Below are positions 7,346-28,296 of a stretch of DNA of 32,360 bases, in pieces. This DNA comes from Lewinella sp. (GTDB lineage: Bacteria > Bacteroidota > Bacteroidia > Chitinophagales > Saprospiraceae): NCBI GenBank assembly GCA_026421165.1, contig JAPKCQ010000010.1:1-32360 (forward strand), given 5' to 3'. The notes beneath the pieces are model-generated. The model did not search any database. It had not been told where the DNA came from and saw only the letters and a list, made by a program, of their open reading frames with translations. Position numbers and translations under genes: made by a program. Within the stretch, counting starts at the first letter, position 1, and each line of letters starts with the position of its first letter.

Positions 7346-8029
7346 ATGGATACTATAACCTTATCGCTTGCGATCACATATCTTGCGTTTACAGGAGTAG
7401 GATCAGAGATGTGTAACACGAAAAATATTTATTTTGACAACCACAATGGCTTTATGTGCGTGTCGAACACTGAAGCCGTTGATAGTGCCGGAAACGTTAC
7501 TCATACCCAAGACCTTTATTTTTGGAACGAATCGCTCCTGAAATATGATGAAAAGACAGCTACTTGGGACAAACTCCCAAACAGATCTATTGAATACACG
7601 GTTGATAAACTTGACGCGGGAAAGGAGGTCGTTACCAGTTTTAGCCAGGAGCCCAACTCCGGCGACGTTGAAGGAACGATGACTTTTCGCAAGCAATCCC
7701 AATATGTTAACACAGGAAACCTTCTATCGTTAGATTGCCCATCACCATCAATCGTCACGAACGACTTTTTTATTAAGCTGATTCCGGATATAGCTGATTA
7801 TAATATCTCTGCCCTTAGGCGTATTGGAGCTGTGATAACTTGGAATACTGATGGTGGCCGTTTTCCGGTGTTTTGGTCAGGATTTACATCCTCTTCTACA
7901 TCCTTTCTTGGTGACGAATTGGTCTTTTTTGAAAGACAACATCGAGAAAGCTCAAGTCTCAGATTCTCAAGCGAGAGTATCACCGAAGTAGTATCAAAAC
8001 ATCTGCCTAGTGGACCAACCCGTAAATAG
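7346..8029 (+). CDS. Hypothetical protein
   Basis: A frame of 227 codons, more AT-rich than its neighbours; I recognise no family. The first 20 residues are hydrophobic without a clear positive n-region, so either Met1 (7346) begins a weak signal sequence or translation starts at Met22 (7409), which has AGGAG and GGATCAGAG before it. The body is polar and beta-rich in appearance (for example KNIYFDNHNGFMCVSN and VITWNTDGGRFPVFWSGF). The stop codon and last five codons lie inside the left arm of the long palindrome at 8007-8174, so the C-terminus may have been rewritten by arrival of that element. The preceding gap (7115-7345) is AT-rich and holds nothing I can support. Base composition suggests lateral origin. 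Confidence 0.5.
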   Translation: MDTITLSLAITYLAFTGVGSEMCNTKNIYFDNHNGFMCVSNTEAVDSAGNVTHTQDLYFWNESLLKYDEKTATWDKLPNRSIEYTVDKLDAGKEVVTSFSQEPNSGDVEGTMTFRKQSQYVNTGNLLSLDCPSPSIVTNDFFIKLIPDIADYNISALRRIGAVITWNTDGGRFPVFWSGFTSSSTSFLGDELVFFERQHRESSSLRFSSESITEVVSKHLPSGPTRK

Positions 8030-8174
8030 AGGTACTGATAAGCGCAGGTATTTCGTGCGCTGACTAGGCGACAAAGTACTTGCATAGCCGTAGCTACGGA
8101 AGTACTTTGGTAACGACGGCAGCGTGCGAAAGGGCAAGCTTAGCGGTGCCTCTATTTACGGGTTGATCCACTAG
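8007..8174. repeat. Long palindromic element, family B copy 1
   Basis: The left arm 8007-8035 pairs with 8146-8174 over 29 bases with two mismatches; both ends read CTAGTGGA(C/T)CAACCCG. Nested inside, 8051-8062 pairs with 8120-8131, and 8072-8081 (CAAAGTACTT) pairs perfectly with 8100-8109. The apex 8080-8101 is TTGCATAGC-CGTA-GCTACGGAA, shared with the copies at 25369-25389 and 28269-28290. It lies between convergent genes (the hypothetical gene and the TolC-like gene) and includes the stop codon of the first. The terminal arms resemble those of a MITE-like non-autonomous element, with CTAG at both ends. Confidence 0.8.
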
Positions 8175-8222
8175 AGTAAGCTCTCAATAGTTTGAGGTGT
8201 AGTATCGGCAGTTTTCCTAACA

Positions 8223-8259
8223 TTGCCTCTCAACCTCTCACTGCACCCGCGCCCGCGCC
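8223..8259 (-). repeat. Family A dispersed repeat, copy 2
   Basis: Core TGCACCCGCGCCCGCGCC at 8242-8259 (plus strand), preceded by a well-conserved tail TTGCCTCTCAACCTCTCAC at 8223-8241. This is one of the best full-length copies. Confidence 0.7.
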
Positions 8260-8289
8260 ACCATGTAGTAGCCGCAAAGCGAAAAAATA

Positions 8290-9750
8290 CTACTCAACCA
8301 CCAACTTATCCCCCGTAATAAAGTCAAACAACGTAAGCCGCCGCAGCTCATAATACCCAATCCAGAAATTCCGTAAACTGGAGAGGTACTGCCCCCGCGC
8401 CGCATCCTGTTCCTTCACGGCAAGGTTGAGTTCGGTCACGCTGAGCTTACCGATTAGGTAGCGTTTGCGGGTGATGTCTTGGCGGCGGATGGACACTTCG
8501 TAGGCACGGTCGGAGAGGGTAACTTGGTTGCGCAGCAGGTCATATTGCCGCACCTGCAAGCGGATGCGCCGCTCAAAGCTGATCTTTTCCTGGGTGATGT
8601 TGAGCCGTTCCAAGTCCTGGTTGGAGCGGGCCACCTCGATGCGGCTGCGCGCCTTACCGAAGTCAGCTATCGGTACGCGGATGCCGAGGGTCACGACCTC
8701 CTGATCGATCAGCCCGTCGTAAGCATTACCGAAGCTGTTGCCCGTTCCGGAGAGGCCGAACTGCCCGTTGATGTCGACCTGAAAGCCATTATTTTTCACC
8801 GCACGGTCTACTTCCGCTTCGGCCTCTAGGGCACGGCGCTCGAAGGCGATAATTAGGCTACGGTTCTCGAGCGCGTACTGTAGGGCCTGATCGGCATCGA
8901 CGTTATTGGTCGGGATACCATCCGGTGGAATGAGTTGAAACTCGGCATTGGTAGTGATGCCAAGGAAACTACGCAACTGTTCGTTCGCCGTCTGGGCGTT
9001 GAGGTCAGCGCTGGCCAGTTGGGCGTTGGCGTTCATCACGCTCAGCTCAATCTGCAGCAAGTCCGTTTCGGCGATGCGGCCGACGGAGTAGCGGCCCTGG
9101 CTGATCTGGTAGAGTGTGTCGGCGTTGACCTTATTCTTGGTCGCCGCCTCGAGGGTAAGCTGGGCGATGAGGAGATCGAAGAAGAGATCGGATGATGTAG
9201 CTGCAGCCTGTTCTTTTGCCTCGTTAAACTCACGCTTGTTTTCCTGGTAGCGGAGCGGCTCGGTTTTTTTGCGCCACTTCAGCTCGTTGTAGGTCCGCAG
9301 CGGCTGGGTAAAGCCGATGGAAATGGGGGTGGAAAGATAGGATAGGGAGCCGGCATTAATATCTGTTTTAAAGATATCCAACCGGCGCAAACCGGTAGTA
9401 AGGAAGACTTGTCCACCAGTTGCCGTGATGGGCTGTGACAGGAAAAGGTTGACGGAGTTTCGCATGAACGCCCGACTTACAAAGTCCTCGCTACCGTCGG
9501 GCAGGGTGATCGGTTCGATGGAGCGGTTTAAGCCCGGCAGCGTAGCTTCCAGGTTGATCTGCGGTTTATAATCTGCCTGAAACGAGCGGTAGCGCCAGAG
9601 GCTGTTGTTGAGCCGGGTTTCGGCCAGCTTCATGTCGGGAGATTCACTGCGGGCGATGTCTACGACTTCTTCGAGGTTTAGCGTGTAGACTTCCTGGGCG
9701 CTGACGCAGGTGCAGAAAAAGGACAGTAAAAGCAAAGTAAGGGTACGCAT
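8290..9750 (-). CDS. TolC-family outer membrane efflux protein
   Basis: An outer membrane channel of 486 residues for a tripartite exporter. A signal peptide (residues 1-18, ending CVSA before QEVYTLNLEE) is followed by the typical TolC opening, 'Ldeavdia...sPdmklAe', and long amphipathic helices duplicated around residues 30-240 and 270-470. Family hallmarks visible include the strand-forming SVNLFLSQPITATGG segment and a second-half repeat with VVTLGIRVPIADFGKARSR, which matches the OEP 'vglslsiPlfdfG' motif. It is the last gene of a minus-strand operon after the adaptor and permease genes, 73 bases downstream of the permease stop. Cargo unknown. The operon lacks an ATPase gene, so the energising subunit must be encoded elsewhere. 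Confidence 0.88.
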   Translation of the reverse strand: MRTLTLLLLSFFCTCVSAQEVYTLNLEEVVDIARSESPDMKLAETRLNNSLWRYRSFQADYKPQINLEATLPGLNRSIEPITLPDGSEDFVSRAFMRNSVNLFLSQPITATGGQVFLTTGLRRLDIFKTDINAGSLSYLSTPISIGFTQPLRTYNELKWRKKTEPLRYQENKREFNEAKEQAAATSSDLFFDLLIAQLTLEAATKNKVNADTLYQISQGRYSVGRIAETDLLQIELSVMNANAQLASADLNAQTANEQLRSFLGITTNAEFQLIPPDGIPTNNVDADQALQYALENRSLIIAFERRALEAEAEVDRAVKNNGFQVDINGQFGLSGTGNSFGNAYDGLIDQEVVTLGIRVPIADFGKARSRIEVARSNQDLERLNITQEKISFERRIRLQVRQYDLLRNQVTLSDRAYEVSIRRQDITRKRYLIGKLSVTELNLAVKEQDAARGQYLSSLRNFWIGYYELRRLTLFDFITGDKLVVE

Positions 9751-9823
9751 GGTGTTCTCTGGGGTTTATATTTGATAAGATGCTGAGGTGGAGTACTCGC
9801 CCTCGGAGCGTATTTCATCCGAA

Positions 9824-11143
9824 TCAATCAGAACGAAGGGCTTTAATCGGATCAAGTTTAGCAGCGCGTTGGGCGGGGAACAGGCCGAAGACCAACCCAA
9901 TCACCGAAGCTACTCCGAAGGAAAGTAGTACGCTCCAAAGCGAGACCTCCGTCGGGATATCATAGTTGGCCGCAATGAAGCGTGCCGCGCCGACGCCGAC
10001 GATGATGCCCGTAATGCCACCGAGTAGACTGATGAAAATGGCCTCCAGCAAAAACTGCTGAACGATGTCTTGTTGGGTAGCACCGAGGCTGCGGCGGGTA
10101 CCGATCTCCTTGGTTCGCTCCAGTACGGAAGCCAGCATAATGTTCATGATGCCGATGCCGCCGACGAGGAGGGAAATCCCGGCGATGAAGGCCAGTACCT
10201 TATTGAAGGTGTCCTGGGTTTTCTGTTGTGCTTCGAGCATTTTCTCGGGCACGGCCATTTCGTAGTCGAGCACGCCCTGGTGGCGGCGCTTGAGTAGGCG
10301 GGCGACCACGTTGGAGGTCGCCAACAGCTCATCGGATTCATCCACCCGGACCACCAGGCGGTCCAGCTGGTGGTAATTCTCCGCTTTCTGGTTGCCGCGG
10401 CTCCGGCCGATGTTGGTCAGGTGTGCGTAGCTGCGGTCTTTGAAGCGAATGAGCGCGGTCTGCAGCGGTATGTAGACATCCTGGTTGTAGTCCCGGATGC
10501 CGAGGTTTTCGAGCTGCTCACTTTTTGCGATTCGCCGCTCCAGCACGCCGATGATGCGCAGCCAGGTACTGCCACATTTGATCCGCTGGCCAATGGGATT
10601 GCCGGCGCTGAAGTACTTGCGCAATATGTCTTGCCCGATGATGCAGACAGGATCGCCCCGTTGCTGGTGGATGTCGTGAAACATCGTCCCCCGGTCAAGG
10701 CCGAGGTTATTGAGTTCGAAGAAAGCATTGGTAACGCCGACGGCCCGGCTCTTGCCGATCTTCCCGTCCCGAATAATGGTAGTAGGAAGAATGATCTCCG
10801 GACTCATTGCCGTTACGCCGGGAAGAATGGCGGTGATGGCCCGAACATCCCCCAGCGTGAGGCCGGGAGACCACTTCTTGGTGTTCTTGTCCTGGCCTGC
10901 GGATTGAGCCTCTTCGGCATCGCCACCTTCGGCAGCTTCCATCAGGCTGGTCACTACGATGTTATTGGCTCCGATGAGACGCATTTGGGCCAGGATGGTT
11001 TCCCGAGCTCCAGTGCCGATGGCGAGCATGGCGATCACTGCCGCTACGCCGAAAACGATGCCCAGGGCAGTCAGGAAGGCCCGCAGCCGGTTGGCCGCTA
11101 CGCCTTCCAGGGCTAGTTGAAAGTTGAAGAATAGCTTTTGCAT
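9824..11143 (-). CDS. MacB-type ABC transporter permease (FtsX domain, no ATPase)
   Basis: A permease of 439 residues. One N-terminal membrane segment (RLRAFLTALGIVFGVAAVIAML, about residues 20-42) is followed by a large periplasmic MacB core domain and three C-terminal membrane segments, starting with LAFIAGISLLVGGIGIMNIML and ending at the classic FtsX tail 'PAQRAAKLDPIKALRSD'. The cytoplasmic coupling region LERTKEIGTRRSLGAT is intact. Unlike E. coli MacB there is no N-terminal nucleotide-binding domain, and no ATPase gene lies beside it. I chose Met at 11143; the extension to 11197 adds 18 residues without family resemblance. It lies between the adaptor and TolC-like genes in one operon and probably forms with them a mechanotransmission-type exporter of an unknown substrate. 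Confidence 0.88.
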   Translation of the reverse strand: MQKLFFNFQLALEGVAANRLRAFLTALGIVFGVAAVIAMLAIGTGARETILAQMRLIGANNIVVTSLMEAAEGGDAEEAQSAGQDKNTKKWSPGLTLGDVRAITAILPGVTAMSPEIILPTTIIRDGKIGKSRAVGVTNAFFELNNLGLDRGTMFHDIHQQRGDPVCIIGQDILRKYFSAGNPIGQRIKCGSTWLRIIGVLERRIAKSEQLENLGIRDYNQDVYIPLQTALIRFKDRSYAHLTNIGRSRGNQKAENYHQLDRLVVRVDESDELLATSNVVARLLKRRHQGVLDYEMAVPEKMLEAQQKTQDTFNKVLAFIAGISLLVGGIGIMNIMLASVLERTKEIGTRRSLGATQQDIVQQFLLEAIFISLLGGITGIIVGVGAARFIAANYDIPTEVSLWSVLLSFGVASVIGLVFGLFPAQRAAKLDPIKALRSD

Positions 11144-11243
11144 GTTAGGGCGGGTTACGGGTGGCGAGGTATAAAGTGAAAGTACATTGCCGTACAAATA
11201 ATGATTTTGATCATCTCGACTACGCTTGATGGCCGGGCGAATT

Positions 11244-12629
11244 TTAAAACATGATCATAAACCCTCCACCATCATCTCCACCGCCACCAAGCTGTCCTTC
11301 TTCCTTCACTTTCGCCTCTTTGGCGTCGCCGATTTTACGGCGCTCTTCACGCTCAGAGAAGAGGAAGTTTGTTGCTGAGTCACGGACCATTTGCGCCAGT
11401 GGTTGCAGCGGCATATTCACCGCGTCGGAAGGGGCGGTGAGGTACACCCGATCGCCGGGGGAGAGGCCTTCTACGATTACGACCTCGTTTTCGTTGCTCC
11501 AGCTGCTGAGTACTTCCTGCTTTACCGGCCGGCCGTTTACTTCTTTATAGACGAAGGAAACCGTGTCTTTATATAGTGCTTCGAGGGGAATGAAGAGCTT
11601 GTCTTCCAGTATATCGGTCAGGACTTCGTTGCCCGTCGTCATGGCTGGCCGTAGGATGGAGTCTGCTTCGTTGACCTGGATGATTACTTCGAATACCTTG
11701 GAGTCGTAGTTTCGGAGCTGTTCGCCGATGTTGGCCACCTGGACGACAAGACCGGTGTACGTCTTGTCCGGAAAAGCATCCACTTTAATTTCTACCTCCT
11801 GCCCTTTACGGACGCGGCTGATGTCGACTTCATTTACGTAGGTCTTGGAGATCATTTCAGAAAGGTCAGGCAGCTCTGCCACCACCGGGTCCCAGGCTTG
11901 GACCTGGGAGCCGGCTGCGACTTTACCTTGCCAGCCACGGGCGTAGATGACCATACCGTCTTTCGGGGCGGTGATGGTAAATTCTCCGGCGAGCTCCTGC
12001 AGGCTGGTTACAATGACCTGTTGCTGGCGGATATTGGCCATGATTTCGGCAACCTGGGTACGGGCTTTTTCCTGGCTCAGCTCGTACTTTTGTTCAAGCT
12101 GTTTCAGGTCGCGCTCGGCGCGTTCCAGTTCGATGTTGGCGCGCTGGATTACCATTGGAGCTTCGTATTTACTTTGCTCTACCTCCAGGTCTTTTTCGCG
12201 CATCCCGAAGCGCATATTGATGAGTTGATCGCGCATGGCGCGCATCTCGATGGCGGTATCGATGCGGGTGGCTTCGAGCTGGGTATTGATCTTGTCCATC
12301 TCACTCAGAGCAGCTTTCACCTTTGTATCGAGCTCCGTTTTATCGAGTTTGGCGACGTAATCACCTTCTTTCACCATCGTGCCTTCCGGAACAAGGTCGG
12401 TGATGCTGGTCTGGTAGATTTGGTTGCTTCGCATTCCCGGTGGCCCCTTTATTTTTTCGGAATGCTTGGCCTGAAGTTCGCCGGTGGCGATCACGCTCAT
12501 CAGGAATTTGCCCTGCTTTACCGGTACCGTTAGCTGAACTGATTCTTCGGCTTCTGCGGGCTGGGTGAAGTACCAAACGGAGAGGCCGACGGCGATTATG
12601 CCGAGAAGAGGTAAGAGGTATTGTTTCAT
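11244..12629 (-). CDS. HlyD/MacA-like periplasmic adaptor protein
   Basis: A membrane-fusion subunit of 461 residues linking an inner membrane permease to a TolC-like channel. It has an N-terminal anchor (LLPLLGIIAVGLSVWYF, about residues 5-21), a first lipoyl half ending near LVPEGTMVKEGDYVAKLD, a long coiled-coil hairpin (about residues 108-215, rich in E, R, Q), the second lipoyl half with FTITAPKDGMVIYARGW, then beta-barrel and membrane-proximal domains. The end is an unusual Gly/Asp-rich tail (GGGGDDGGGFMIMF). It is the first gene of the operon, 100 bases before the permease start. Together with the permease and TolC-like gene it specifies a MacAB-TolC-like exporter without its ATPase. 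Confidence 0.87.
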   Translation of the reverse strand: MKQYLLPLLGIIAVGLSVWYFTQPAEAEESVQLTVPVKQGKFLMSVIATGELQAKHSEKIKGPPGMRSNQIYQTSITDLVPEGTMVKEGDYVAKLDKTELDTKVKAALSEMDKINTQLEATRIDTAIEMRAMRDQLINMRFGMREKDLEVEQSKYEAPMVIQRANIELERAERDLKQLEQKYELSQEKARTQVAEIMANIRQQQVIVTSLQELAGEFTITAPKDGMVIYARGWQGKVAAGSQVQAWDPVVAELPDLSEMISKTYVNEVDISRVRKGQEVEIKVDAFPDKTYTGLVVQVANIGEQLRNYDSKVFEVIIQVNEADSILRPAMTTGNEVLTDILEDKLFIPLEALYKDTVSFVYKEVNGRPVKQEVLSSWSNENEVVIVEGLSPGDRVYLTAPSDAVNMPLQPLAQMVRDSATNFLFSEREERRKIGDAKEAKVKEEGQLGGGGDDGGGFMIMF

Positions 12630-13052
12630 TTGAGCTGGGTGTATGGGTAAAAGACTAGTGGTAACAGGATGCTTAAAGCTAACGGAATGGTTGTTGCGTG
12701 TTGTTGATTAGGTATAAAATTAACTTTTACTGCTTTTTGGGCGCGGGCGCGGGTGTAAAATAATGTTAGAAAATATTTCGCTTTGGCGAAAGGCTGGGGC
12801 GTGAAGTTCCTTCAGGACTTTCCGTACTTCGTCATCCCGCAATGGTTACGGGGGAATTAGTAAATTATGTTGGGAAAGGCGTACGCGGGTGTTTGTTTTT
12901 CATCTACGTAAGTCGAGGTGTCAAGTTTTGCGGGTATACACCTCCGTTCCAACGGAGAAGTAATTCTCTATCGTAACGGGAATTGTCGCTAAAGACAAAT
13001 CATTTCGTAATTAGTATATTTACCCACGACAACCTTAAAAGTAATTCTTCTA
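12630..13052. other. Divergent intergenic region with several small hairpins
   Basis: No gene. It holds family A copy 3 (12740-12757), the hairpin TTTCGC-TTTG-GCGAAA near 12777-12792, and two overlapping stems: GAGGTGT (12915-12921) with ACACCTC (12938-12944), and CTCCGTT (12942-12948) with AACGGAG (12951-12957). The last two share bases 12942-12944 and cannot form together. Promoters for the divergent genes must lie here, but I see no good TAnnTTTG match. Confidence 0.45.
12740..12757 (+). repeat. Family A dispersed repeat, copy 3 (core only)
   Basis: GGCGCGGGCGCGGGTGTA. The core is well preserved; the purine-rich tail is absent, as AAATAATG follows. Confidence 0.5.
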
Positions 13053-16000
13053 ATGAAAAAAGCGACTTTACTCCTTCTATTTTGCTTCCTGGCGGTTGCT
13101 GAATTACCGGCCCAAATCGAATTAGATCACCTGGAGTATCGCAACGTCGGTCCTACCCGCGGGGGCCGTGCTACGGCCGTGGCTGGCGTACGAACCCAAC
13201 CTAATGTCTTCTACATGGGGGCTACAGGAGGGGGAGTATGGAAAACGGAGGACTACGGAACGAGTTGGTCTAATGTGTCCGACGGTTTTTTTACTACCCC
13301 GTCGATTGGCGCGATTCGGGTAGCGCAAAATGACCCGAATATCGTGTACGTCGGTACGGGTTCGGACGGGCTGCGTTCCAACGTGATCACCGGTAAAGGG
13401 GTTTATAAGTCCGTCGATGCCGGGAAGTCCTGGCGACACATTGGGCTGGATAAGACCGGACAGATTGGCGCCGTCGAGATTCACCCGACCAATCACAATA
13501 TCGCTTTTGTCGCGGCTATTGGGAATGCCTTTGCGCCCAACCCGGAACGGGGTGTATTCCGGACGAAGGATGGAGGCAAGAGCTGGGAAAAAGTATTGTT
13601 CATTTCGGAGCAAACCGGCGCGGCGGACCTGGAATTTATGCCCAGCAACCCGGACATCATCTACGCGACCGTCTGGCGGGCCGAGCGGAAACCCTGGACC
13701 ATCATCAGTGGGGGAGAAGAACACGGGATATACAAATCCGTCGACGGCGGTGATACCTGGACCAAACTCGAAGAGGGACTCCCCTCCGGCATCGTCGGAA
13801 AGATTGACCTGGCCGTGAGTCCGGCCAACCCCAGCCTGCTCTACGCCCTGGTGGAAGCCCCCGATGATCAGGGCGGTTTGTACCGCTCCAATGATCAGGG
13901 CGAAAGCTTTACCCACGTCTCCAAGGATAAAAGCCTCTCCATCCGTCCCTTTTACTACACCAATATTGACGTCGACCCACAGGATACCGACATCATCTAC
14001 GTAATGTCTACTCCTTACCTGAAGTCCATCGACGGCGGTAAAACCTGGGGCCGCCTCAAACCGCCCCACGGCGACAATCACGACATGTGGATCAATCCGG
14101 ATAATCCCCAGCTTTTCGTCCAGGCGAACGACGGCGGCGCCAACGTCACCCACAACGGCGGCAAAACCTGGTCGACCCAACTGAACCAGCCCACGGCAGA
14201 ACTCTATACCCTGGAAGTAGACGATCAGTATCCCTACTGGCTCTACGCCGGCCAGCAAGACAACTACACCACCATCTCGGTGCCCAGCCTGCCGCCTTAC
14301 AGCCACCAGGCCGGTGCGATCGGACTGGTGATGAATACGGGGGGCTGCGAAACGGGGCCGGCCGTGCCCAAACCGGGCAATCCCGATATCGTCTATTCGA
14401 ATTGTAAGGGGCGCTTCAGTGTCTACAATAAAAACACTGGGCAGGAGCAGAGCTACGACGTAGGCGCCGCCTATATGTACGGGCATAACCCCAAAGACTT
14501 GACGTTCCGTTTCCAGCGGGTATCGCCCATCCACGTTTCCCCGCACGATGCGAACGTCATTTACCATACCTCACAGTTTGTTCATAAAACCACGGACGAG
14601 GGAAAGACATGGGAGATGATCTCTCCGGACCTCACGGCCTTTGAGGAAGACAAGCAGGTGATTTCCGGCGCACCCATTACCCGGGACATTACCGGGGAGG
14701 AGTTTTACAGTACAATTTATGCTATCCGCGAGTCTATGATTGAGAAAGGCGTGATCTGGGTCGGTGCAAACGACGGTCCGGTACACGTCACCCAGGACGG
14801 TGGCGCCAACTGGAAAAAAGTAACTCCTAACAACCTTCCCGGAGGAGGACGGATCGACTGCGTGGAGCCCTCTCCCCACCAGGCCGGGAAAGCCTACTTC
14901 ACGTCCATGCGTTACCAACTGGGCGACTGGAAGCCCTACATCTACAAAACGACCAACTACGGCAAGAACTGGGAGTTGCTGACGGATGGGAATAACGGCA
15001 TCCCGGCGGATCATCCGGTGCGGGTGGTGCGGGAAGACCCCGACCGCGAAGGCTTGCTCTACGCCGGGACTGAGTTTGGTCTGTTCATCTCTTTTGATGA
15101 CGGTAAAAACTGGCAGTCTTTCCAGCGTAACCTGCCGGTTACTCCCATCAGCGACATCAAGGTTCACCGCAAAGACCTGGTGCTGGCCACGATGGGCCGT
15201 TCCTTCTGGATAATGGACAACCTCTCGAGCCTGCACCAGGGCGCCGAGCAGCTGGAGGCCTCAGCCGCCCGTTTGTTCCGGCCCCGCGATCATGTCCGCT
15301 ACCGCTACCGGGGGCGCAGTGGTAGTGAGCACATCGATTATCCGCTGCCGGGTGTGGACATTGATTATTACCTCCCCGCAGGCGTGGCGGAACCGATCAA
15401 GATGGAATTCCTGGATGCTTCCGGAAAAGTGGTGCGTACGCTGGTGAGCGGCAGTCAGGACAGCGTAGCTACTGAAGTTGTGCGGGATATGGCGACCAAC
15501 GATGTGGCCTACAACCTGAACAGTAAGCTGAGCACCAAGTCGGGGCTCCACCGATTCCGGTGGGACATGCGGCACCACGGAAGTTGGGATGCCTCCAAGC
15601 GCAAGAGTTACTCCGGCGGGCCTATGGTCAGCCCCGGTACCTATACCGTTCGGTTCACCGTGGATGGTAAAACGATGGAGGAGTCCTTCGCACTACAACT
15701 CGACCCGAAAGTCGCCGCCAGTGGGGTGAGCCTGGCTGATGTGCAGGCGCAGGAGTCCGTAGCACTGGAGATCATCTCGCTACTTTCTGAGTTGAAAAAG
15801 ATGGGCCAGGGGGTCAAGGAAAAACAAAAGGCCCTGAAAGGGAATGGTGAGCTGACTGCGGACCAGCAAAAACAGCTGGAGCAACTCAAAGTATTAGAGA
15901 AAATGTTGGTTACGGCTAAAGGAACTTACATGCAGCCCATGCTTATTAGCCAGGTCAACTACCTGTATGGAATTGTCCGTCGGGCTGATCAGGTGCCGGG

Positions 16001-16316: not shown

Positions 16317-16495
16317 TTGGGTTTAGATCAAGAGTACTTTACCGAGGAACAACTCAGTGAATTAATGGTACAGCAAGAATATGATTTTATATATTCAATG
16401 GCTGTTGTATTATTTATGCGGCGTCCCTAAAGGGTCTAACAGACCGTGATGCACATGCCAATAAGTACTCGGACAGAATTAATGTGACATTATGA
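16317..16495 (+). pseudogene. Possible frameshifted small gene remnant
   Basis: From a TTG at 16317 a 37-codon frame reads LDQEYFTEEQLSELMVQQEY followed by DFIYSMAVVLFMRRP and stops at 16428-16430. The next frame continues with protein-like sequence, KGLTDRDAHANKYSDRINVTL, to a TGA at 16493-16495. The two pieces look like one short protein broken by a frameshift. No family is recognised, and no standard start codon precedes it. Chance coding-like sequence in an AT-rich stretch is a real alternative. Confidence 0.25.
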
Positions 16496-16506
16496 TCTGG
16501 TAGATT

Positions 16507-16908
16507 TTGGGTCTGAATGAGGCGAAACCTCGAAGAAGCCGCGAAGCGAAACGTAGGCAACACCGTAGTGTTAGCGAGGCTTTTCAACGAAGTTCAGGCT
16601 CAAAAGATGCCGAACAGGATGGTGCGATTAATTTTGTCCGAGTACTTACCGTTGAAAACGTATTTAATCGGGAAACGCCACGCGAAAGATTCCCACCTAT
16701 TAAAGAACCACACATTCCTCCTAAGGATGAATCCATATATGATAACGATGACTTAAACGACCTACAGCTCTCAATCGTAAAGGGTGCACATCACTTAGCT
16801 GTATACAGTCAAAAAACAAATAAACGTGTCCCTAAACCACATCGCGTTAAAAAGATGAAACATGCTAAAAAACATCTTAAACACATGAGTGATAATTTTA
16901 TAAAATAA
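16507..16908 (+). CDS. Doubtful hypothetical protein, basic C-terminus
   Basis: A 133-codon frame opening with TTG. The first 35 codons (AKPRRSREAKRRQHRS...) cover a small palindromic repeat (AACAC-CGTA-GTGTT at 16559-16572) and look like translated repeat. From about codon 40 the sequence is more protein-like, with an acidic part (DESIYDNDDLNDLQ) and a Lys/His-rich end (KKMKHAKKHLKHMSDNFIK). I recognise no family. If real, translation probably starts later than the first codon. Low GC and isolation suggest laterally acquired or decaying DNA. Confidence 0.3.
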   Translation: MGLNEAKPRRSREAKRRQHRSVSEAFQRSSGSKDAEQDGAINFVRVLTVENVFNRETPRERFPPIKEPHIPPKDESIYDNDDLNDLQLSIVKGAHHLAVYSQKTNKRVPKPHRVKKMKHAKKHLKHMSDNFIK

Positions 16909-19366: not shown

Positions 19367-19387
19367 GTGGTCTATTACAAAACATCA

Positions 19388-21133: not shown

Positions 21134-21587
21134 ACTGGATCAAGCCAATGTGATCATACAATACCTTCAGGATGCTTTAGACCTTTCCTTCTGGTCAGCA
21201 ACGAGCATAGCTACCAGCAGAAAGAGTTGATTGACAATTGTCTCTACCATCTTTGTAGACTAGCCTTCTTGACTAATTATAAATAAGTAACCAGCGATAA
21301 GGCCAGCGGAAACGATGGCTAGAATACGGCGAAACTTGGAGCTATTAAAATTTATGCTTGTGCAACCTGACGTCAGCGAAAGATGTCATAGAAACATTTT
21401 ATAAGCCCCTCTAAGAAGCTGTCTCCTACTTCTTCAATCTCTACCGCACCAGCGGCCGCCGCTCAAAATTTTGGTAATTTTCCCAAATCTCTTAATTTTC
21501 AAGAGATAACAAGCTGCCACCGAACATCCGCTCTAAATTACCGTAAATTGTGTAGCACAAGCACAACAATCTTACGAGAAAACTACC
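21134..21587. other. Intergenic region, no supported gene
   Basis: Two very short hydrophobic minus-strand frames lie near 21170-21340 (one reads MVETIVNQLFLLVAML, the other RRILAIVSAGLIAGYLFII). They could be remnants of a membrane protein but are too short to call. A degenerate family A copy is at 21445-21462. The last 100 bases before the GCS2-CBS gene are AT-rich. Confidence 0.4.
21445..21462 (-). repeat. Family A dispersed repeat, degenerate copy 6
   Basis: CGCACCAGCGGCCGCCGC on the plus strand, preceded by a CT-rich tail. It matches the core in most but not all positions, so membership is tentative. Confidence 0.35.
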
Positions 21588-23513
21588 ATGGGCGAAGAAA
21601 GAGTAAACGTACCAACCAACGAAAGCCGCACTAATTTTGCGCACCACTTGCTGCAGGATGTGCAGGCGCTGGAGTATATGCTGAAGCATAAATGGTTCGA
21701 AACTGAGACCATCCGTATTGGTGCCGAGCAGGAATTGTGCTTAGTGGACAAAAAAACGCTGAAACCTGCGCCGAAAAATATTCAGGTACTCAACCGATTG
21801 AAGCAATACCCTTGGGCCACTACCGAGATCGCTAAGTTCAACGTGGAATGTAATCTGAGCCCTCAGGAGTTCACCGGTCACGCGCTGCGCCTGATGGAAA
21901 CCGAGAACCGGTTTCAGCTGGCGAAAGTCCAGGAGTCAGCCAAAAAGAGCGGCGCCCTCGTTGTGCTTACGGGTATCTTGCCTACTCTACGTAAGTTTGA
22001 CCTCTCGTTGGAGAACCTGACGCCCAAACCACGGTATCGGGCCCTTATCGATGCGATTCGCGCCCAGTCTAAATCTTCCAAAGGGTTTGAGTTACGGCTG
22101 ACGGGCATCGACGAACTGTACATCAGCCACGATAGCCCGCTGATGGAAGCCTGCAACACCAGCTATCAGGTCCACCTGCAGGTAACCCCGGATACTTTTG
22201 CGCCGCTTTACAATATTGCTCAGGCCATCACCGGCCCCATCCTCGCCATTTCAGCGAACAGCCCCTTGGTGTTTGGTAAGCGACTGTGGCACGAAAGCCG
22301 CATTGCCCTTTTTCAACAGTCGCTCGACGTACGGACCAGCCAGGATCACCTGCGCCAACCTGAGCCACGCGTAAGCTTTGGAACCGACTGGCTTGATAAG
22401 AGCATCATGGAGATTTATAAGGAAGACATTTCTCGCTTTCGGGTGCTGCTCGGTGCCGAGGTGGAGGAAAATAGCCTGGAGACGATCGGCCGTAAAGAAG
22501 TTCCCAAGCTGAAGGCCCTGCAGGTCCACAACGGTACGGTGTACCGCTGGAATCGGCCCTGCTACGGCATCAGCGACAACGGTATGCCGCACCTGCGTAT
22601 CGAAAACCGGGTAATCCCTGCCGGGCCGACGGTGCTCGATCAGGTAGCGAACTCCGCCTTCTGGCTTGGCACTATGATTGGAATGGCCAACAAGTACAAA
22701 GACATCCGGGAGCACATGAGCTTCGCCGACGCGAAAGACAACTTCGTGAAGGCCGCCCAGTTTGGCATTGATACGCAGTTCACCTGGTTCAACGATAAAA
22801 AGATGAGCTGCTGCGACCTCATCGTAAGAGAACTATTGCCTATTGCCCGCGAAGGTCTGCAGAGCCGTGGTATTGTGGAGGAAGACATCGAGCGCTACCT
22901 CGGCGTGATCGAGGCGCGGGCCAAGGCCCACCAGAACGGTGCGCGCTGGCTGCTACAATCGTACACCAAGCTGGAAAAAGAGGTTAACCAGGACGAAGGC
23001 CTGACGGTCATTACCTCGGCTATGATCAAGAACCAGATGTCGGAAACACCCGTCCATCTGTGGGGATTGCCCGACGCTGCGGACCTGAAGAGCTACCGTC
23101 CGGTGGGCCTTCGCGTCGAAGAGTTCATGGAAACCGACCTCTTTACCGTTCACGAAGACGACCTGCTGGAAATGGTGGCCAACGTGATGGAGTGGCGCAA
23201 GCTGCGCTACGTGCCGGTTGAAGACGGAAAGGGCCATCTGGTTGGCCTTATTACTACTCGGAAACTGCTGCGTTATTATACCCATCGTGAACGTCCGGAT
23301 AGCCCTGAAGCCGGTTACGTACAGGTGAAAGATATCATGATCTCCGCGCCTCTCACTATTCATCCGGACACTACCATCAAAGACGCCATGCACGTAATGC
23401 GCGGTGAAAAAATTGGCTGTCTGCCCGTGATTAAAGACAAGGAACTGGTGGGTATTATTACGGAGATGGATTTTTTGCGGGTTAGTGGGCGGTTGATTGA
23501 ACGGCTTAAGTAA
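21588..23513 (+). CDS. GCS2-family carboxylate-amine ligase fused to two CBS domains
   Basis: A protein of 641 residues. Residues about 35-420 resemble the glutamate-cysteine ligase family 2 (GCS2) fold, an ATP-grasp-like ligase joining a carboxylate to an amine; IRIGAEQELCLVD and FNVECNLSPQEF are the family's metal and substrate-binding glutamate segments. The C-terminal 130 residues are a CBS pair: CBS1 from about 510 (VEEFMETDLFTVHEDD ... GLITTRKLL) and CBS2 from about 580 (VKDIMISAPLTIHPDT ... GIITEMDFL). CBS pairs usually bind adenine nucleotides, so the ligase is probably tuned by energy state (inference). The true product could be gamma-glutamylcysteine or another amide; the family is functionally diverse. 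The start ATG has only AT-rich sequence before it, as is usual in Bacteroidota. No operon partner. Confidence 0.85.
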   Translation: MGEERVNVPTNESRTNFAHHLLQDVQALEYMLKHKWFETETIRIGAEQELCLVDKKTLKPAPKNIQVLNRLKQYPWATTEIAKFNVECNLSPQEFTGHALRLMETENRFQLAKVQESAKKSGALVVLTGILPTLRKFDLSLENLTPKPRYRALIDAIRAQSKSSKGFELRLTGIDELYISHDSPLMEACNTSYQVHLQVTPDTFAPLYNIAQAITGPILAISANSPLVFGKRLWHESRIALFQQSLDVRTSQDHLRQPEPRVSFGTDWLDKSIMEIYKEDISRFRVLLGAEVEENSLETIGRKEVPKLKALQVHNGTVYRWNRPCYGISDNGMPHLRIENRVIPAGPTVLDQVANSAFWLGTMIGMANKYKDIREHMSFADAKDNFVKAAQFGIDTQFTWFNDKKMSCCDLIVRELLPIAREGLQSRGIVEEDIERYLGVIEARAKAHQNGARWLLQSYTKLEKEVNQDEGLTVITSAMIKNQMSETPVHLWGLPDAADLKSYRPVGLRVEEFMETDLFTVHEDDLLEMVANVMEWRKLRYVPVEDGKGHLVGLITTRKLLRYYTHRERPDSPEAGYVQVKDIMISAPLTIHPDTTIKDAMHVMRGEKIGCLPVIKDKELVGIITEMDFLRVSGRLIERLK

Positions 23514-23553
23514 TCTGCGATTTGGCTGCCGCACGTTACCGGGGGTAAGAATA

Positions 23554-23587
23554 ATTAGGGTTTTTTATTTTTTTTCGAAATCCTAAT
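23554..23587 (+). terminator. Stem with T-rich centre after the GCS2-CBS gene
   Basis: ATTAGGGTTT (23554-23563) pairs with AAATCCTAAT (23578-23587), nine of ten bases. Bases 23561-23575 are almost all T. The T-run is within the hairpin loop rather than after it, so this is an unconventional terminator; a TTACC/GGTAA stem just upstream (23536-23548) could supply the hairpin. Confidence 0.45.
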
Positions 23588-23668
23588 CATCCTGAATTCT
23601 TTATTGTGTTTCCCAACGCTTATCCCGTGCGGGGGCACTAGATTACGACCGAACTACAAGGCTAAAGA

Positions 23669-23710
23669 GGCGGGGCCGCAGGATGCAAAGCCGGTTGAAA
23701 GGCAGGGAGG
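23669..23710 (+). repeat. Family A dispersed repeat, copy 7
   Basis: Core GGCGGGGCCGCAGGATGCA (one extra base) at 23669-23687, then the tail AAGCCGGTTGAAAGGCAGGG. The tail is very close to consensus. Confidence 0.65.
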
Positions 23711-23751
23711 TTACTCGTAAGCAAATGCTTCGTACTTTCGGCGCGGTCCGA

Positions 23752-23786
23752 ACTACTTGACTGCGTTACTTTTTGACTACTTGACT
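23752..23786 (+). repeat. Short direct repeat ACTACTTGACT before a start codon
   Basis: ACTACTTGACT occurs at 23752-23762 and again at 23776-23786; the second copy abuts the ATG at 23787. It may influence translation initiation or be a slippage product. Confidence 0.5.
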
Positions 23787-25169
23787 ATGAAATGGTACAG
23801 CCGCATCCCCTCTCCACTGATAATGCTTTTTCTAATCATCCTAGTGGTGGCGGCGATGACTTGGTTGCTGCCCGCCGGTTTGTACGAACGCATCGAGGTA
23901 AACGGTCGGCTGCGGGTGGTACCGGGTAGCTACGGTGAAGTGGAGTCCACGCCCTTGAGTATTTTCGAGGTGTTCAAGACCTTTCCAGATGGTTATAAGC
24001 GGGCAACGCCGATTATTTTTATCTGTCTGGCGAGTGCGTTGATGTTCTCATTACTGGAGCGGACCAGAACGATTGAAAACGCAGTTGGTCGTATCGTTCA
24101 TCTGATGGGGCAAAACCGGGCAGAGCTATTGTTGGTGTTACTGACTTTTGTTTACGGAATGCTGGGAGTTATGGTCGGTTACGAAAACAATATCGCGACC
24201 ATCCCGATTGCGGCTATTGTCGTACTCGCTCTGGGTGGTGACCTGGTGCTGGCCGCCGGGGTTAGCGTGGGGGGGATGACGGTAGCCTTCGGCCTGTCAC
24301 CGATTAACTTCTACACCGTCGGTAACGGCCATCTGATTGCCGACCTGCCCTTGTTCAGCGGAGCATGGCTAAGAACCATTCTTTGCGCTGGCGGCCTCGC
24401 CCTGATGGCCTGGTACAACGTGCGCTATTACCGTAAACTACAAGCCGATCCTGCCAACGCAATCGGTGGCGACCTGGATACCAGCGGAATGAAACTGAGC
24501 AAGCCGTTGGAAGAATACGAAATCACTGGCCGCAACTGGTTGCTACTGGCGATCTTCCTTTGTGGGTTGGGAGCAGTACTTTATGGCGTCTTCAACGTCG
24601 AAGGCTTTCACATTAACGACACCTCGGCCATTTTCTTGATGGTGACGGTCGTACTCGCGCTGGCCAGCGGCCTTTCCGGCAAAGATGTAACCGAGGCCGG
24701 TTTCCGCTCCATTGCTCAGATGGCTCCGGCGACTTTCATCATCGGCATGGCGACCACCGTTAGTGTGATCATGGAGCAAGGCCAAATTCAAGATACGATC
24801 AGCAACGGGCTCGCGAACGCACTTAGTGGCTTACCTACCTACCTTTCAGCCATCGGTATGTCGATCGGGCAGAGCGGACTTAACCTCTTAATTCCTTCGG
24901 GTAGCGGGCAGGCGATGGCGACGCTTCCGGTGATGATTCCGTTGGGGAATGAGCTCGGGCTTAGCCCGCAAATTTCTATCCTCGCCTTCCAGGTTGGGGA
25001 TGGGATTACGAACCTGTTCAACCCTTCGCTTGGCGGCTTGGTGGCGATGCTCTCGCTCTGTCGGGTTCCTTTTGACCGGTGGCTACGGTTTGCCTTGCCG
25101 CTTACGGGGATGTTGCTGATTTGGGCTTGGATGGGGCTGCTTTTGGCGGTCGCCGTTGGGTACCAGTAG
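23787..25169 (+). CDS. YfcC/DcuC-family membrane carrier
   Basis: An integral membrane protein of 460 residues with about 11-12 hydrophobic segments. The opening, IPSPLIMLFLIILVVAAMTW followed by LLPAGLYER and VVPGSYGEVE, and the later FEVFKTFPDGYKRA are characteristic of the YfcC branch of the C4-dicarboxylate carrier (DcuC) superfamily, whose members are often tied to amino-acid or peptide uptake. The second half has the paired family motif SGLNLLIPSGSGQAMATLPV and FQVGDGITNLFNPSLGGLVA. Start: the ATG at 23787 begins a natural cytoplasmic n-region; the upstream in-frame TTG at 23757 adds ten residues from a direct repeat and is not used here. The substrate cannot be inferred from position, as the gene stands alone with a long palindrome between it and the converging porX. 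Confidence 0.83.
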   Translation: MKWYSRIPSPLIMLFLIILVVAAMTWLLPAGLYERIEVNGRLRVVPGSYGEVESTPLSIFEVFKTFPDGYKRATPIIFICLASALMFSLLERTRTIENAVGRIVHLMGQNRAELLLVLLTFVYGMLGVMVGYENNIATIPIAAIVVLALGGDLVLAAGVSVGGMTVAFGLSPINFYTVGNGHLIADLPLFSGAWLRTILCAGGLALMAWYNVRYYRKLQADPANAIGGDLDTSGMKLSKPLEEYEITGRNWLLLAIFLCGLGAVLYGVFNVEGFHINDTSAIFLMVTVVLALASGLSGKDVTEAGFRSIAQMAPATFIIGMATTVSVIMEQGQIQDTISNGLANALSGLPTYLSAIGMSIGQSGLNLLIPSGSGQAMATLPVMIPLGNELGLSPQISILAFQVGDGITNLFNPSLGGLVAMLSLCRVPFDRWLRFALPLTGMLLIWAWMGLLLAVAVGYQ

Positions 25170-25456
25170 GTGTTGATCGGCTATAAATATGATAGGCCTT
25201 ACATGGATACTTCGCAAGGCTTAGCTTAAGGAGGCCGTTGTAACTTAGGGGGCCAATTCCTTAGAAACGTGAAATAAATAAACAATAATAGCCAGCTTAG
25301 GGACGCGGATATAATAAAGTGTGGCTTTCTGACCTGGCACTTTTGTTCCTGCTACCACCAAAAATTCTTTGCATAGCATCGCTACGGAAAGGATTTTGGT
25401 GGTAGCAGGGGCAAAGTAAGACGGTCAGAGATCGCAGTTTATTTTATTCCCGTTCT
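25170..25456. other. Spacer between convergent genes, mostly a palindrome
   Basis: The half next to porX is the long palindrome 25311-25447; the half next to the carrier gene shows nothing recognisable. Confidence 0.5.
25311..25447. repeat. Long palindromic element, family B copy 2
   Basis: The inner arms CCTGCTACCACCAAAA (25348-25363) and 25394-25409 are perfectly complementary over 16 bases. The apex at 25369-25389 is TTGCATAGC-ATC-GCTACGGAA, as in copies 1 and 3. Outer arms (25311-25340 against 25420-25447) are imperfectly paired and end in AT-rich sequence on both sides, giving T-rich RNA ends in either direction. It lies between the stop codons of the yfcC-like gene and porX, so it may also act as a bidirectional terminator. 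Confidence 0.8.
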
Positions 25457-27013
25457 TTACCTGCTTCGCAACCGAATCACCGGGCAAATAACCTCCTCCA
25501 ACGAAATACCACCGTGCTGGAAGGTGTCCCGGTAGTAGTTATTGTAGTAGTTGTAGTTGTTGGGGTAGAGGAAGAATTTATCCTCCTTAGCGAAGATGAA
25601 GGTGGAGCTCAGGTTGGGGCGGGGAAGCATTGCCTTCAGGGGGTCGCGGACCTCAAGTACGTCCTTTTCGTTGTAGTTGAGGTTGCGGCCAAGTTTGTAG
25701 CGTAGGTTGGAGCTGGTATCGCGGTCGCCAACGACGCGGCTTGGGGTGTTTACCCGGATGGTTCCGTGATCAGTAGTAACGATGAGCTGCACGTCGCGCT
25801 CGGAGAGTTTACGCAGGGTTGCCCACAGGGGAGAGTTCTCGAACCAGCTGCGGGTTAGGCTGCGGTAGGCTTTTTCGTCGCCGGCTAGTTCCTTGAGCAC
25901 CTCCATTTCGGTACGGGCGTGGCTCAGCATATCGATGAAGTTATAAACGATGACGCTGAAGTCGTTGTTCAGGAAGTCCAGCGCACGGTCCTGCATCTGG
26001 CGGGCGAAGTTGGTGCGGGTGACTTTTGTGTAGTCCCACTTGATATCACCCCTGCGGAGCACGCGTTCGATTTGCTTTCCAAGCAGGTCAGCCTCGTGCA
26101 TATTTTTACCGCCCTCGTCGGTGTCGTTCTTCCACCAGTCTTTGTAGTGCTTAGCGATTTCCGAAGGCATCATGCCGGCGAAGATGGCGTTGCGGCTGTA
26201 CTGGGTGGCGGTTGGGAGGATGCTGTAGAAATGATCCTCCTCTTCCACTTTGAAGAGTTCGGTGATGTAGGGTTCGATGACCTTCCATTGGTCGTAGCGC
26301 ATATTGTCTAGCAATACCATCACCGTGGGAACCTCCTTGTTGAGGTAGGGTAGTACCTTTTCACGCATCAGGTTGTGAGACATGATGGGGGCGTCTTCTC
26401 CCTGCACCCAGTCCACATAATTGCGTTCGATAAATTTACTGAATTCAGCGTTGGCTTCCCGCTTTTGCACGGCGAGGATCTCGCCCATCTGTTCGCTTTT
26501 GCTGTCGTCTAGCTTCAGTTCCCAGTTGATGATTTTCTTGTAGACATCGACCCACTCATCCTTGTTGAGCCCACTGTTGATCTGCATCATCAGCTGGCGG
26601 AAGTCTTGCTGGTAGTCAGTGTCTGTTTTTTCGCGAACGAGGCGTTTTTCATCGACGATGGTTTTCAGCGTCAGCAGTATCTGCATTGGATTGACCGGCT
26701 TGAGGAGATAGCCGGCGATCTGGCTACCGATGGCTTCTTCCATCAGGCTTTCGGCTTCGTTTTTAGTGATCATCACCACGGGGATGTTGTTGCCCGTTTC
26801 CCGGATGCGCGCCAGGGTTTCTAGGCCAGTGAGGCCGGGCATGGACTCATCCAGGAAAACGATATCAATCTCATCGTTCTCTTCCAGTTCTTCCAGGGCG
26901 TCGTGGCCGTTAGTGGCCGTTATGACTTCGTAGCCTTTCTTTTTCAGGAATATAAGCTGGGGCTTGAACAGGTCGATTTCGTCGTCGGCCCAGAGGATGG
27001 TGATTTGATCCAT
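25457..27013 (-). CDS. porX: PorX: response regulator-PglZ protein of type IX secretion
   Basis: A protein of 518 residues, the normal PorX length. Residues 1-120 are a CheY-like receiver: acidic pocket Asp10/Asp11 (WADDE), phospho-acceptor Asp55 in IVFLDESMPG, Thr83 and Lys105 in GYLLKPVNP. A helical linker follows (about 125-200), then a PglZ domain of the alkaline-phosphatase superfamily (about 215-515) with VMVLLDNMRYDQW, SILPTATQYSRNA (the likely nucleophile threonine region) and VTTDHGTIRV as metal-binding segments. In studied Bacteroidota PorX works with the sensor kinase PorY and sigma factor SigP to control T9SS genes, and its PglZ domain hydrolyses oligonucleotides. No PorY gene is nearby, as is usual. 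The product should control export of cargo such as the protein at 17288-19366. Confidence 0.93.
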   Translation of the reverse strand: MDQITILWADDEIDLFKPQLIFLKKKGYEVITATNGHDALEELEENDEIDIVFLDESMPGLTGLETLARIRETGNNIPVVMITKNEAESLMEEAIGSQIAGYLLKPVNPMQILLTLKTIVDEKRLVREKTDTDYQQDFRQLMMQINSGLNKDEWVDVYKKIINWELKLDDSKSEQMGEILAVQKREANAEFSKFIERNYVDWVQGEDAPIMSHNLMREKVLPYLNKEVPTVMVLLDNMRYDQWKVIEPYITELFKVEEEDHFYSILPTATQYSRNAIFAGMMPSEIAKHYKDWWKNDTDEGGKNMHEADLLGKQIERVLRRGDIKWDYTKVTRTNFARQMQDRALDFLNNDFSVIVYNFIDMLSHARTEMEVLKELAGDEKAYRSLTRSWFENSPLWATLRKLSERDVQLIVTTDHGTIRVNTPSRVVGDRDTSSNLRYKLGRNLNYNEKDVLEVRDPLKAMLPRPNLSSTFIFAKEDKFFLYPNNYNYYNNYYRDTFQHGGISLEEVICPVIRLRSR

Positions 27014-27188
27014 ATAATGTTTGGGGTTTTTGTCTGAGCCGGGGGAGAAACACTGGCCGTTAAAAGAGTACGCGTTAAAGCGCGTGATGTTTTAAACGTA
27101 GTGGATAATAGGGATAGTCTTTACCCTTTGATCGAATTCCGAAGGGTTCTTGCCGTTCAACGTTCTTTGCATCCCGCGTTCGCGCCAT

Positions 27189-27218
27189 AAAAAACAGCAC
27201 CCCCGGAAATTGATGCTC
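27189..27218 (-). terminator. Weak minus-strand terminator
   Basis: Read on the minus strand, GAGCATC (27218-27212) can pair with GGTGCTG (27201-27195), including one G-T pair, and is followed by six T residues (27194-27189). It lies downstream of the remnant ending at 27284 and upstream of porX. Confidence 0.4.
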
Positions 27219-27283
27219 AGAAGTGCCGTGTAACCTACTTCCTATTTTTTTAGCTTGCGGGAGGAGAGCAGCGAAGGAGGCCG

Positions 27284-27445
27284 TTACTCTTTTCCAGTAG
27301 TAAGTAAAGCCTCAAGTCGCGCCAACCGCGCCTCCAGGTTCTCGATTCGCTTGTTCTGCGCCTCAATAGTAGCCTGCTGCTCCTGAAAACTAAAACCAGT
27401 AGATTGAGGATGTACTGCAGCACGGATAGGAGGGATGGTTCAAGG
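27284..27445 (-). pseudogene. Remnant of a protein with a C-terminal coiled coil (tail-fibre/S74 chaperone-like)
   Basis: The minus strand reads FSFQEQQATIEAQNKRIENL followed by EARLARLEALLTTGKE and a TAA at 27284-27286. This heptad-patterned ending is typical of Bacteroidota proteins with an S74-type intramolecular chaperone domain, whose final helix has 'QEQQ..I..L...L..L'. An in-frame TGA lies only about 50 codons upstream. In the adjacent frame just before it, VAIGHKALNH resembles the 'YG.KALN' motif that precedes this helix, consistent with a frameshift. The rest of the gene is gone. Assignment to S74 is from the pattern alone; the loss of the upstream part is clear. Confidence 0.45.
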
Positions 27446-27496
27446 CTTTATGCCCTATTGCTACCGGCGTTACGGCTATACTTCAAAAACTTTTAT

Positions 27497-27514
27497 TGTA
27501 CCTGCGTCAGCGCC
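27497..27514 (-). repeat. Family A dispersed repeat, copy 8 (diverged)
   Basis: TGTACCTGCGTCAGCGCC on the plus strand, preceded by CTTCAAAAACTTTTAT, which matches the tail in reverse. Several substitutions relative to the core. Confidence 0.45.
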
Positions 27515-27519
27515 CATTA

Positions 27520-27623
27520 TTAGACCGTTAGAATTTAGACCGTTAGGAGAAAAAACCTTGGTCTGTCTACGATGACTATTTTGTGCAATCTAACGGTCTG
27601 ATTTTTTAATTTCTAACGATCTA
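27520..27623. repeat. Nested inverted repeats of TTTAGACCGTTAGAA
   Basis: Two direct copies at 27520-27533 and 27534-27548, and two inverted copies at about 27588-27601 (CTAACGGTCT) and 27611-27623 (TTCTAACGATCTA). A fifth copy is at 31896-31910, just after enolase. The block ends two bases before the HAD start codon, so it could shape that gene's 5' leader. Confidence 0.65.
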
Positions 27624-27625
27624 AT

Positions 27626-28237
27626 ATGCCCCACACAATAATTTTTGACATTGGTAACGTCCTAATCGGCTGGAACCCACACAACCTCTACGATAAAGTC
27701 TTCGATACGGTGGAGGAGGCCGACTGGTTCATCACTAACATTACCCATCTGGACTGGAACGAGGAGCAGGATCGCGGCCGGCCAGTGGCCGAAGCTACCG
27801 AAGAACTGGTGGCGCAGCACCCAAAATGGGAACGCGAAATCAGGATGTACTACGGTCGCTGGACGGAGCATTTTTCGGGCGCGATCGCAGGTACCGTGGA
27901 CGTTTTAAAAACACTGGAAGCCTCCGGAGGTTACCGCCTTCTCGCCCTTACCAACTGGAGCGCTGAACTCTTCCCCTGGGCCCGCGAAAACTTCGACTTC
28001 CTCGACATCTTCGAGGACATCATGGTCTCTGGCGAGGTGAAAATGAAAAAACCCAATCCGGATATTTACCTCCACTTAGCGGAAACGTACGGGCTGGGCG
28101 ACTTCTCCGGCTGCTTGTTTATTGACGACAGCGTTCGGAACTGTGTGACGGCACGGTCTCTGGGCTTAGATGCCATTCGGTTTGAGAGCCCTGAGCTGTT
28201 ACTGGAGGCATTGAAACAGCGGGGTGTGGTCGTTTGA
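27626..28237 (+). CDS. HAD-family phosphatase (YihX-like subfamily)
   Basis: A haloacid-dehalogenase-fold hydrolase of 203 residues. Motif I is FDIGNVL with nucleophile Asp8; the second Asp of the usual DxD is Gly10, as in YihX-like sugar phosphatases. Motif II is LALTNWS (Thr109, Asn110), motif III the Lys142 in KKPNPDIY, and motif IV LFIDDS (Asp167, Asp168). The helical cap lies at about residues 15-85. Probable reaction: dephosphorylation of a small sugar phosphate or similar metabolite in the cytoplasm; the exact substrate cannot be told. The start ATG lies directly after an inverted-repeat block. A chance similarity to family A occurs inside the gene at 27878-27895 and is discounted. Confidence 0.87.
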   Translation: MPHTIIFDIGNVLIGWNPHNLYDKVFDTVEEADWFITNITHLDWNEEQDRGRPVAEATEELVAQHPKWEREIRMYYGRWTEHFSGAIAGTVDVLKTLEASGGYRLLALTNWSAELFPWARENFDFLDIFEDIMVSGEVKMKKPNPDIYLHLAETYGLGDFSGCLFIDDSVRNCVTARSLGLDAIRFESPELLLEALKQRGVVV

Positions 28238-28262
28238 TCGCTGACGCTTAACGGTCTTGAAA

Positions 28263-28296
28263 AATTCTTTGCATAGCCTAAGCTACGGAAAGAATT
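28263..28296. repeat. Family B hairpin, copy 3 (short arms)
   Basis: AATTCTTT (28263-28270) pairs with AAAGAATT (28289-28296). The apex 28269-28290 is TTGCATAGC-CTAA-GCTACGGAA. Beyond these arms pairing is weak. It follows the HAD gene by 25 bases, and about 25 bases after it begins the truncated cfa pseudogene. Confidence 0.75.

Follow-up and report, generated by a model that had tools for sequence, protein, structure and literature searches.

In this study, a stretch of 32,360 nucleotides from Lewinella sp. (assembly GCA_026421165.1, contig JAPKCQ010000010.1, positions 1 to 32,360; hereafter the window, meaning the whole stretch of DNA analysed) was investigated for hairpins that share the tip TTGCATAGC-N3/4-GCTACGGAA. 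This tip matched three times in the window, with none expected (100 shuffles), and the same G/G and A/C non-pairs were present in all three matches (Table 1). The original prediction had described a repeat family of hairpins in which a conserved, imperfectly paired tip sits on variable self-complementary arms, and our data agree with that description. The self-complementarity of the arms was confirmed for copy 1 (RNA fold of 8011-8170, z -10.6) and copy 2 (25302-25460, z -11.4), neither of which was beaten by any of 200 shuffles, whereas copy 3 keeps an arm of only about 8 bp, and the fold of its region (28200-28360) reached z -3.0 with 1 of 200 shuffles as good; copy 3 looks like a fragment. 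With model R1, in whose training set all three copies were included, they scored 67.5, 59.0 and 47.9 bits, and the rest of the window scored 15.2 bits or less. The spans first proposed for the complete hairpins, 8007-8174 and 25311-25447, are better drawn at the borders given in Table 1, inside CTAG and TTA flanks respectively. Since CTAG is a palindrome, it is on its own no proof of a duplication at copy 1, whose 160 bp occur a second time elsewhere in the same genome (L004).

Table 1. Hairpin elements of the window, with their tips and flanking duplications
Feature	Coordinates	Strand	Remarks
Left CTAG, presumed target duplication of copy 1	8007..8010	.	read from sequence
Copy 1, 160-bp hairpin element, CTAG class	8011..8170	+ (tip-bearing strand)	arms 89% complementary
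Tip of copy 1, loop CGTA	8080..8101	+	pattern match
Right CTAG, presumed target duplication of copy 1	8171..8174	.	read from sequence
Related 187-bp hairpin, longer different tip	16462..16648	+	inner-arm motif TGAATGAGGC .. TTCAACGAA; fold z -9.3
Left TTA target duplication of copy 2	25297..25299	.	
Copy 2, 157-bp hairpin element, TWA class	25300..25456	+	ends GGGACGC.. / ..CCCGTTCT
Tip of copy 2, loop ATC	25369..25389	+	pattern match
Right TTA target duplication of copy 2	25457..25459	.	
Copy 3, tip and about 8 bp of arm	28259..28296	+	outer arms and terminal inverted repeats none seen
Tip of copy 3, loop CTAA	28269..28290	+	pattern match

The genome of origin (G000, 4.5 Mb in 485 contigs) harbors 20 exact tips, against 0 for the reversed pattern. 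Beyond it, the tip was detected in 5 of 60 genomes of the kin set and in 3 of 395 genomes of the phylum sample, G000 being included in both, as well as in 29 of 397 genomes, or 24 of 237 genera, from the family of the complete genome G184. Scanning of the named genomes disclosed it in at least 114 stretches, and the titles of the 80 matches listed assign 79 of them to Bacteroidota and one to a metagenome-assembled genome of Chlorobiota. A match in Prevotella (L069) lacks arms and may be due to chance; locus L033, from G003 in the genus of G000, is identical in sequence to L117 from a metagenome-assembled genome of uncultured Lewinella. Of 188 tip sites with distinct flanks, 182 possess hairpin arms, and only 2 of these 182 lie inside an open reading frame (ORF).

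The anatomy of the hairpin was studied in 132 copies of the exact tip, each taken with 110 flanking bases to either side, of which 127 were distinct and a few were not hairpins. Counting outwards from the tip without gaps, T occupies positions 26-28 before it in 112, 121 and 116 of the 127 copies, and A the same positions after it in 108, 116 and 118; by eye, AGGC precedes and ACGA or ACAA follows this inner A/T tract in many arms. Positions 5-9 form Watson-Crick pairs in 107-124 of the 127, with both A-T and T-A occurring, depending on the copy. Pairing is poor at positions 13-15, G-T pairs are concentrated at positions 22-24 (36, 47 and 53 copies), and position 30 holds a non-standard pair in 94. 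Among 52 diverse copies, 84.1% of the cells of the named structure were paired compared with 66.8% after shuffling (0/500), 267 cells carried two-sided changes compared with 126, and the covariation score was 0.429 compared with 0.163, a slide by one column giving 0.331 or 0.251. Because these copies were picked by the exact tip, the seven tip pairs are invariant in this set and hence uninformative. The recurrence of the apex in the genome and the covariation of the arms, on which the original prediction had made its case depend, were both observed.

The ends of the elements were searched at 55-85 bases from the tip with four classes of terminal inverted repeats (TIRs). Perfect 3-bp duplications flank 24 of 35 elements of the GAA[CG] class (shuffled mean 4.1, maximum 11), and perfect duplications flank 18 of 26 of the TWA class, with ends like GGRACG/GTAACG (shuffled mean 10.4, maximum 15). 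In the TACCAA class, which has a TWA target, 5 of 8 was not significant (shuffled mean 3.3, maximum 6), and the 5 of 7 of the CTAG-TG class is uninformative, as the search pattern itself fixes CTAG. Within this range element lengths cluster at 158-162 bp in all four classes, most full-length elements being 157-162 bp, with outliers of 147-170 bp that are partly mis-anchored. An Aquimarina genome (G060) holds 119 and 105 TIR matches; the analysis covered 20 loci in which two listed TIRs face one another at a distance of about 160 bp, and 20 more in which a listed TIR stands alone. The pairs, chosen by TIR and not by tip, have lengths of 160-162 bp (n=20), which were partly dictated by the choice of pairs, and show perfect duplications in 16 of 20 cases, on which that choice had no bearing. 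Other TIR spacings are about 50 bp (G062, G184) and about 113 bp (G061). The solo ends include half-elements and decayed copies, and ten inspected solo-TIR loci of Aquimarina, being half-elements, other remnants or unclear, yielded no autonomous copy.

With TIRs, many copies, a size under about 200 bp, no transposase gene, and target duplications in the GAA and TWA classes, it is close to certain that the family consists of miniature inverted-repeat transposable elements (MITEs). Bacterial MITEs such as Correia/NEMIS, ERIC and RUP measure about 100-200 bp, carry TIRs and target duplications, lie mostly between genes and give long stem-loop transcripts, RUP being linked to an IS630-type element (PMC2229807). 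RNA effects, orientation-dependent for ERIC, are reported or proposed for some MITEs with TIRs, duplications and long stem-loops (PMC2229807, PMC3049150, PMC3733652). The present elements resemble Correia/NEMIS, ERIC and RUP in the whole-element hairpin, size, TIRs, target duplications and mostly intergenic placement. They differ in that, in many genera, one tip, one set of inner motifs and one length are common to several TIR classes with different duplications. A regulatory RNA family of the host (attenuator, terminator or small RNA) would account for a stable hairpin lying outside ORFs at 180 of 182 sites; the target duplications, the patchy distribution (within one family, 29 of 397 genomes) and the lack of any Rfam match above the gathering score in the window and 10 loci, where matches were sub-threshold or outside the element, make it highly improbable. 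Integron attC sites were also considered and dropped because of the target duplications.

As to the transposase, the complete genome G184 contains four pairs of TIRs 927-929 bp apart whose TIRs are those of the GAA class, and three of these four insertion sequences (ISs) have perfect duplications. The ORF read in one copy scores 119.8 bits against NF033580 (IS5 family transposase), the cut-off being 110, and carries DUF4096 and DDE_Tnp_1 domains; in a genome search all four copies exceeded the cut-off. The TIRs and the 3-bp duplication of GAA-class elements are thus those of a 928-bp IS5-family IS, which, unlike the tip elements, carries a transposase and no hairpin core: the core model had no match in the four sequences at E up to 1, and so this IS does without the core. 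Remnants adjoin the same GAA-class TIR in G060 and G062, and inspection of the DDE_Tnp_1 loci of seven genomes yielded no GAA-class IS by that route. In G000, a DDE_Tnp_1 gene that is interrupted by a stop ends at CTAAGGAACGTCGATTT, the end of TWA-class copies such as L005 and L010; no second TIR of this broken gene was found.

The original prediction had likened the hairpins to REP hairpins moved by RAYT-type (Y1) transposases, a comparison that did not stand. Y1_Tnp was found in all 27 tip-bearing genomes searched (G034 and G066 apparently being one genome) and also in 50 of the 60 kin-set genomes, G000 included, only 5 of which have the tip; the match in G000 is single and weak (23.2 bits). 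We examined 20 of more than 100 listed Y1 loci, from 17 genomes and mostly of a longer, weakly scoring RAYT-like kind, and only one had an exact tip in view. At this locus (L158, the same place as L026), about 95 bp separate the end of the element from the start of a RAYT-like ORF of 217 amino acids, which we take to be a chance neighbour. Y1 chemistry is not known to leave target duplications, and duplications are present here. The GTAG/CGTC end tag was not encountered either, the ends being GAAC/GAAG, TACCAA or CTAG-TGG in three classes, though some TWA copies end in ..CGTCCC. According to PMC3733652, GTAG/CGTC REPs are imperfect hairpins of 20-40 bp with a terminal tag and G-T pairs in their stems, the GTAG repeats often lying close to RAYT genes and the CGTC repeats being reported from Bacteroidetes too. 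The tip elements share the imperfect hairpin and the G-T stem pairs, and differ in their length of about 160 bp. The same paper describes RAYT genes flanked by long TIRs (PMC3733652), so that the shape of the element alone would not exclude movement by RAYT; the 3-bp target duplications and the IS5 TIRs of one class nevertheless make it very unlikely.

Strand asymmetries were observed at two levels. Within the hairpins, with the arms of the 127 copies aligned and read on the tip strand, G-T pairs outnumber A-C (668 vs 245), G-A outnumber T-C (577 vs 211), G-G outnumber C-C (182 vs 26) and A-A outnumber T-T (307 vs 216), counts that should balance unless one folded strand is favoured or mutation is strand-biased; per copy, G-T exceeds A-C in 106, falls below it in 10 and equals it in 11. 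Genes were called crudely by ORF length, at sites selected for carrying either the exact tip or one variant of it. Between tandem genes, the tip strand is sense to both neighbours at 70 sites and antisense at 32 (p=0.0002), and 45 and 23 where both genes lie within 300 bp. With ORFs of at least 150 codons the figures are 70 and 32, and with at least 200 codons 61 and 29. By class, the figures are 32 vs 15 for GAA and 7 vs 3 for TACCAA. These patterns in the sequences suggest action or selection at the RNA level; it is likely, though unproven, that the folded strand is under selection and that RNA, not DNA, is the form concerned. Folded single-stranded DNA might matter instead, both TIRs being paired into one end for the transposase, and the folded strand does pair TIR with TIR. 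In DNA, too, G-T, G-A and G-G are the more stable mismatches. This alternative does not account for the co-orientation of the tip strand with genes. In G184, the 6 exact copies all share one strand and are scattered around the chromosome; if the two replication arms are about equal, these copies cannot all be on one of them. We consider the single-stranded DNA alternative quite unlikely.

The tip itself is not invariant. In G060, 35 distinct elements fall into two subfamilies; the tip of the second is ATTCATAGC-AGC-GCTACGGAT, in which the changes are paired and the A-C non-pair recurs. Departures from consensus in one subfamily amount to 29/524 (5.5%) in the tip, compared with 117/1495 (7.8%) and 106/1047 (10.1%) for the arms; the other subfamily shows 8/210 (3.8%), compared with 15/599 (2.5%) and 13/408 (3.2%). 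The tip thus appears to decay about as fast as the arms, and inserted copies do not seem clearly held by the host, from which it would follow that conservation across classes stems from the copies that spread. In G000, the inner-arm motif of the 187-bp hairpin is common to 8 genome copies bearing the short tip or a variant; among 12 copies of this arm type, the tip is exact in 2, a close variant in 6, and longer and different in 4, one of them the window hairpin, and nine other genomes contained no copy of the type. One of the 6 variant tips (L354) is fully complementary, a perfect palindrome, and consequently the mismatches that had been predicted to be conserved, though present in all three tips of the window, are not absolute. 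Tip, inner arms and ends look exchangeable. Separately, the left arms of copies L019 and L020 contain an extra stretch, CGCTTCGCGGCTACTGCGTGG, which the 187-bp hairpin partly matches within its long tip.

Such variant and replaced tips within one genome, the similar decay of tip and arms, and autonomous IS copies without the core are what plain palindromic MITEs would display, in which a functionless tip is merely inherited from a common ancestor and the TIRs have been altered by drift or recombination. Against this stand arms that differ widely between classes and still pair, the T and A tracts that stay fixed at positions 26-28, the similar length in four TIR classes and the strand asymmetries; we hold it to be rather unlikely.

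The reading that we favour, with a probability of roughly 0.55, is that these are non-autonomous hairpin MITEs of about 160 bp, moved in trans by IS DDE transposases, whose hairpin acts mainly as RNA. Each element would form one imperfect hairpin from end to end, its outer arms serving as the TIRs that DDE transposases of ISs would cut and join in trans, and the CTAG and TACCAA classes would presumably move likewise. The active form would mainly be RNA of the tip-bearing strand, produced by read-through from neighbouring genes. Together with motifs lying some 11-14 and 26-29 bp further down the stem, the tip may constitute a protein-binding RNA module that aids spread, perhaps because transcripts would then tolerate insertions better, and would be kept by selection on spreading copies rather than by use at each insertion site.

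Several observations weigh against this reading, among them the variant and replaced tips of the G000 arm type. There is no orientation bias in the TWA class (11 vs 9), among CTAG elements (3 vs 3) or in G060 (7 vs 5), and what remains of it once the GAA class is set aside is owed mostly to copies whose ends are unclassified (subtraction leaves 17 vs 2). The G-rich mismatches would equally suit folded single-stranded DNA, and strand-biased mutation is also possible. Again, NF033580 had no match in G000, G003, G005 or G034, the last of which has 13 exact tips and no DDE_Tnp_1 match, and the search for a partner of the CTAG and TACCAA classes gave none; the link of the window's own copies to IS5 is therefore drawn by analogy.

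Other features of the window and of the searches can be added. The final residues (..SGPTRK) and the stop codon of the ORF at 7346-8029 come from CTAG and the first bases of copy 1. An apparent right-arm remnant of a TWA-class element lies at 665-705, three more copies in G000 are of the 16462-16648 kind, with the same inner-arm motif and a long different tip, and 28300-29053 appears by eye to be a broken gene, with 10 stops in the frame tried, which we take to resemble a cyclopropane-fatty-acid synthase. About 100 bp from an element at L194, a Flavo-1 RNA match (1754-1836, minus strand) reached 32.6 bits against a gathering score of 42. A link to viruses was rejected, as the two IMG/VR matches have a 7-base loop and no matching arms; the RAYT query found no viral relative, and one element queried in each of the phage and plasmid records gave no match. 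We found no description of the tip or the element in the openly licensed literature; 17 papers that contain at least two of four 9-base strings appeared to be unrelated.

MITEs are usually viewed as deletion remnants of one parent insertion sequence. The occurrence of at least four kinds of ends on one core points instead to a functional passenger and to end swapping. We put forward tentatively, and as rather unlikely, the wider proposal that one RNA hairpin module crossed the phylum by swapping transposon ends across several DDE IS lineages, with tip, inner motifs and length fixed. This passenger would be under selection for some effect exerted at the RNA level; its tip might, for example, recruit a host factor and thereby soften the polarity that insertions cause within transcription units. 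The family aids the annotation of intergenic repeats in Bacteroidota, and it provides a widespread labelled set for testing what a hairpin adds to a MITE.

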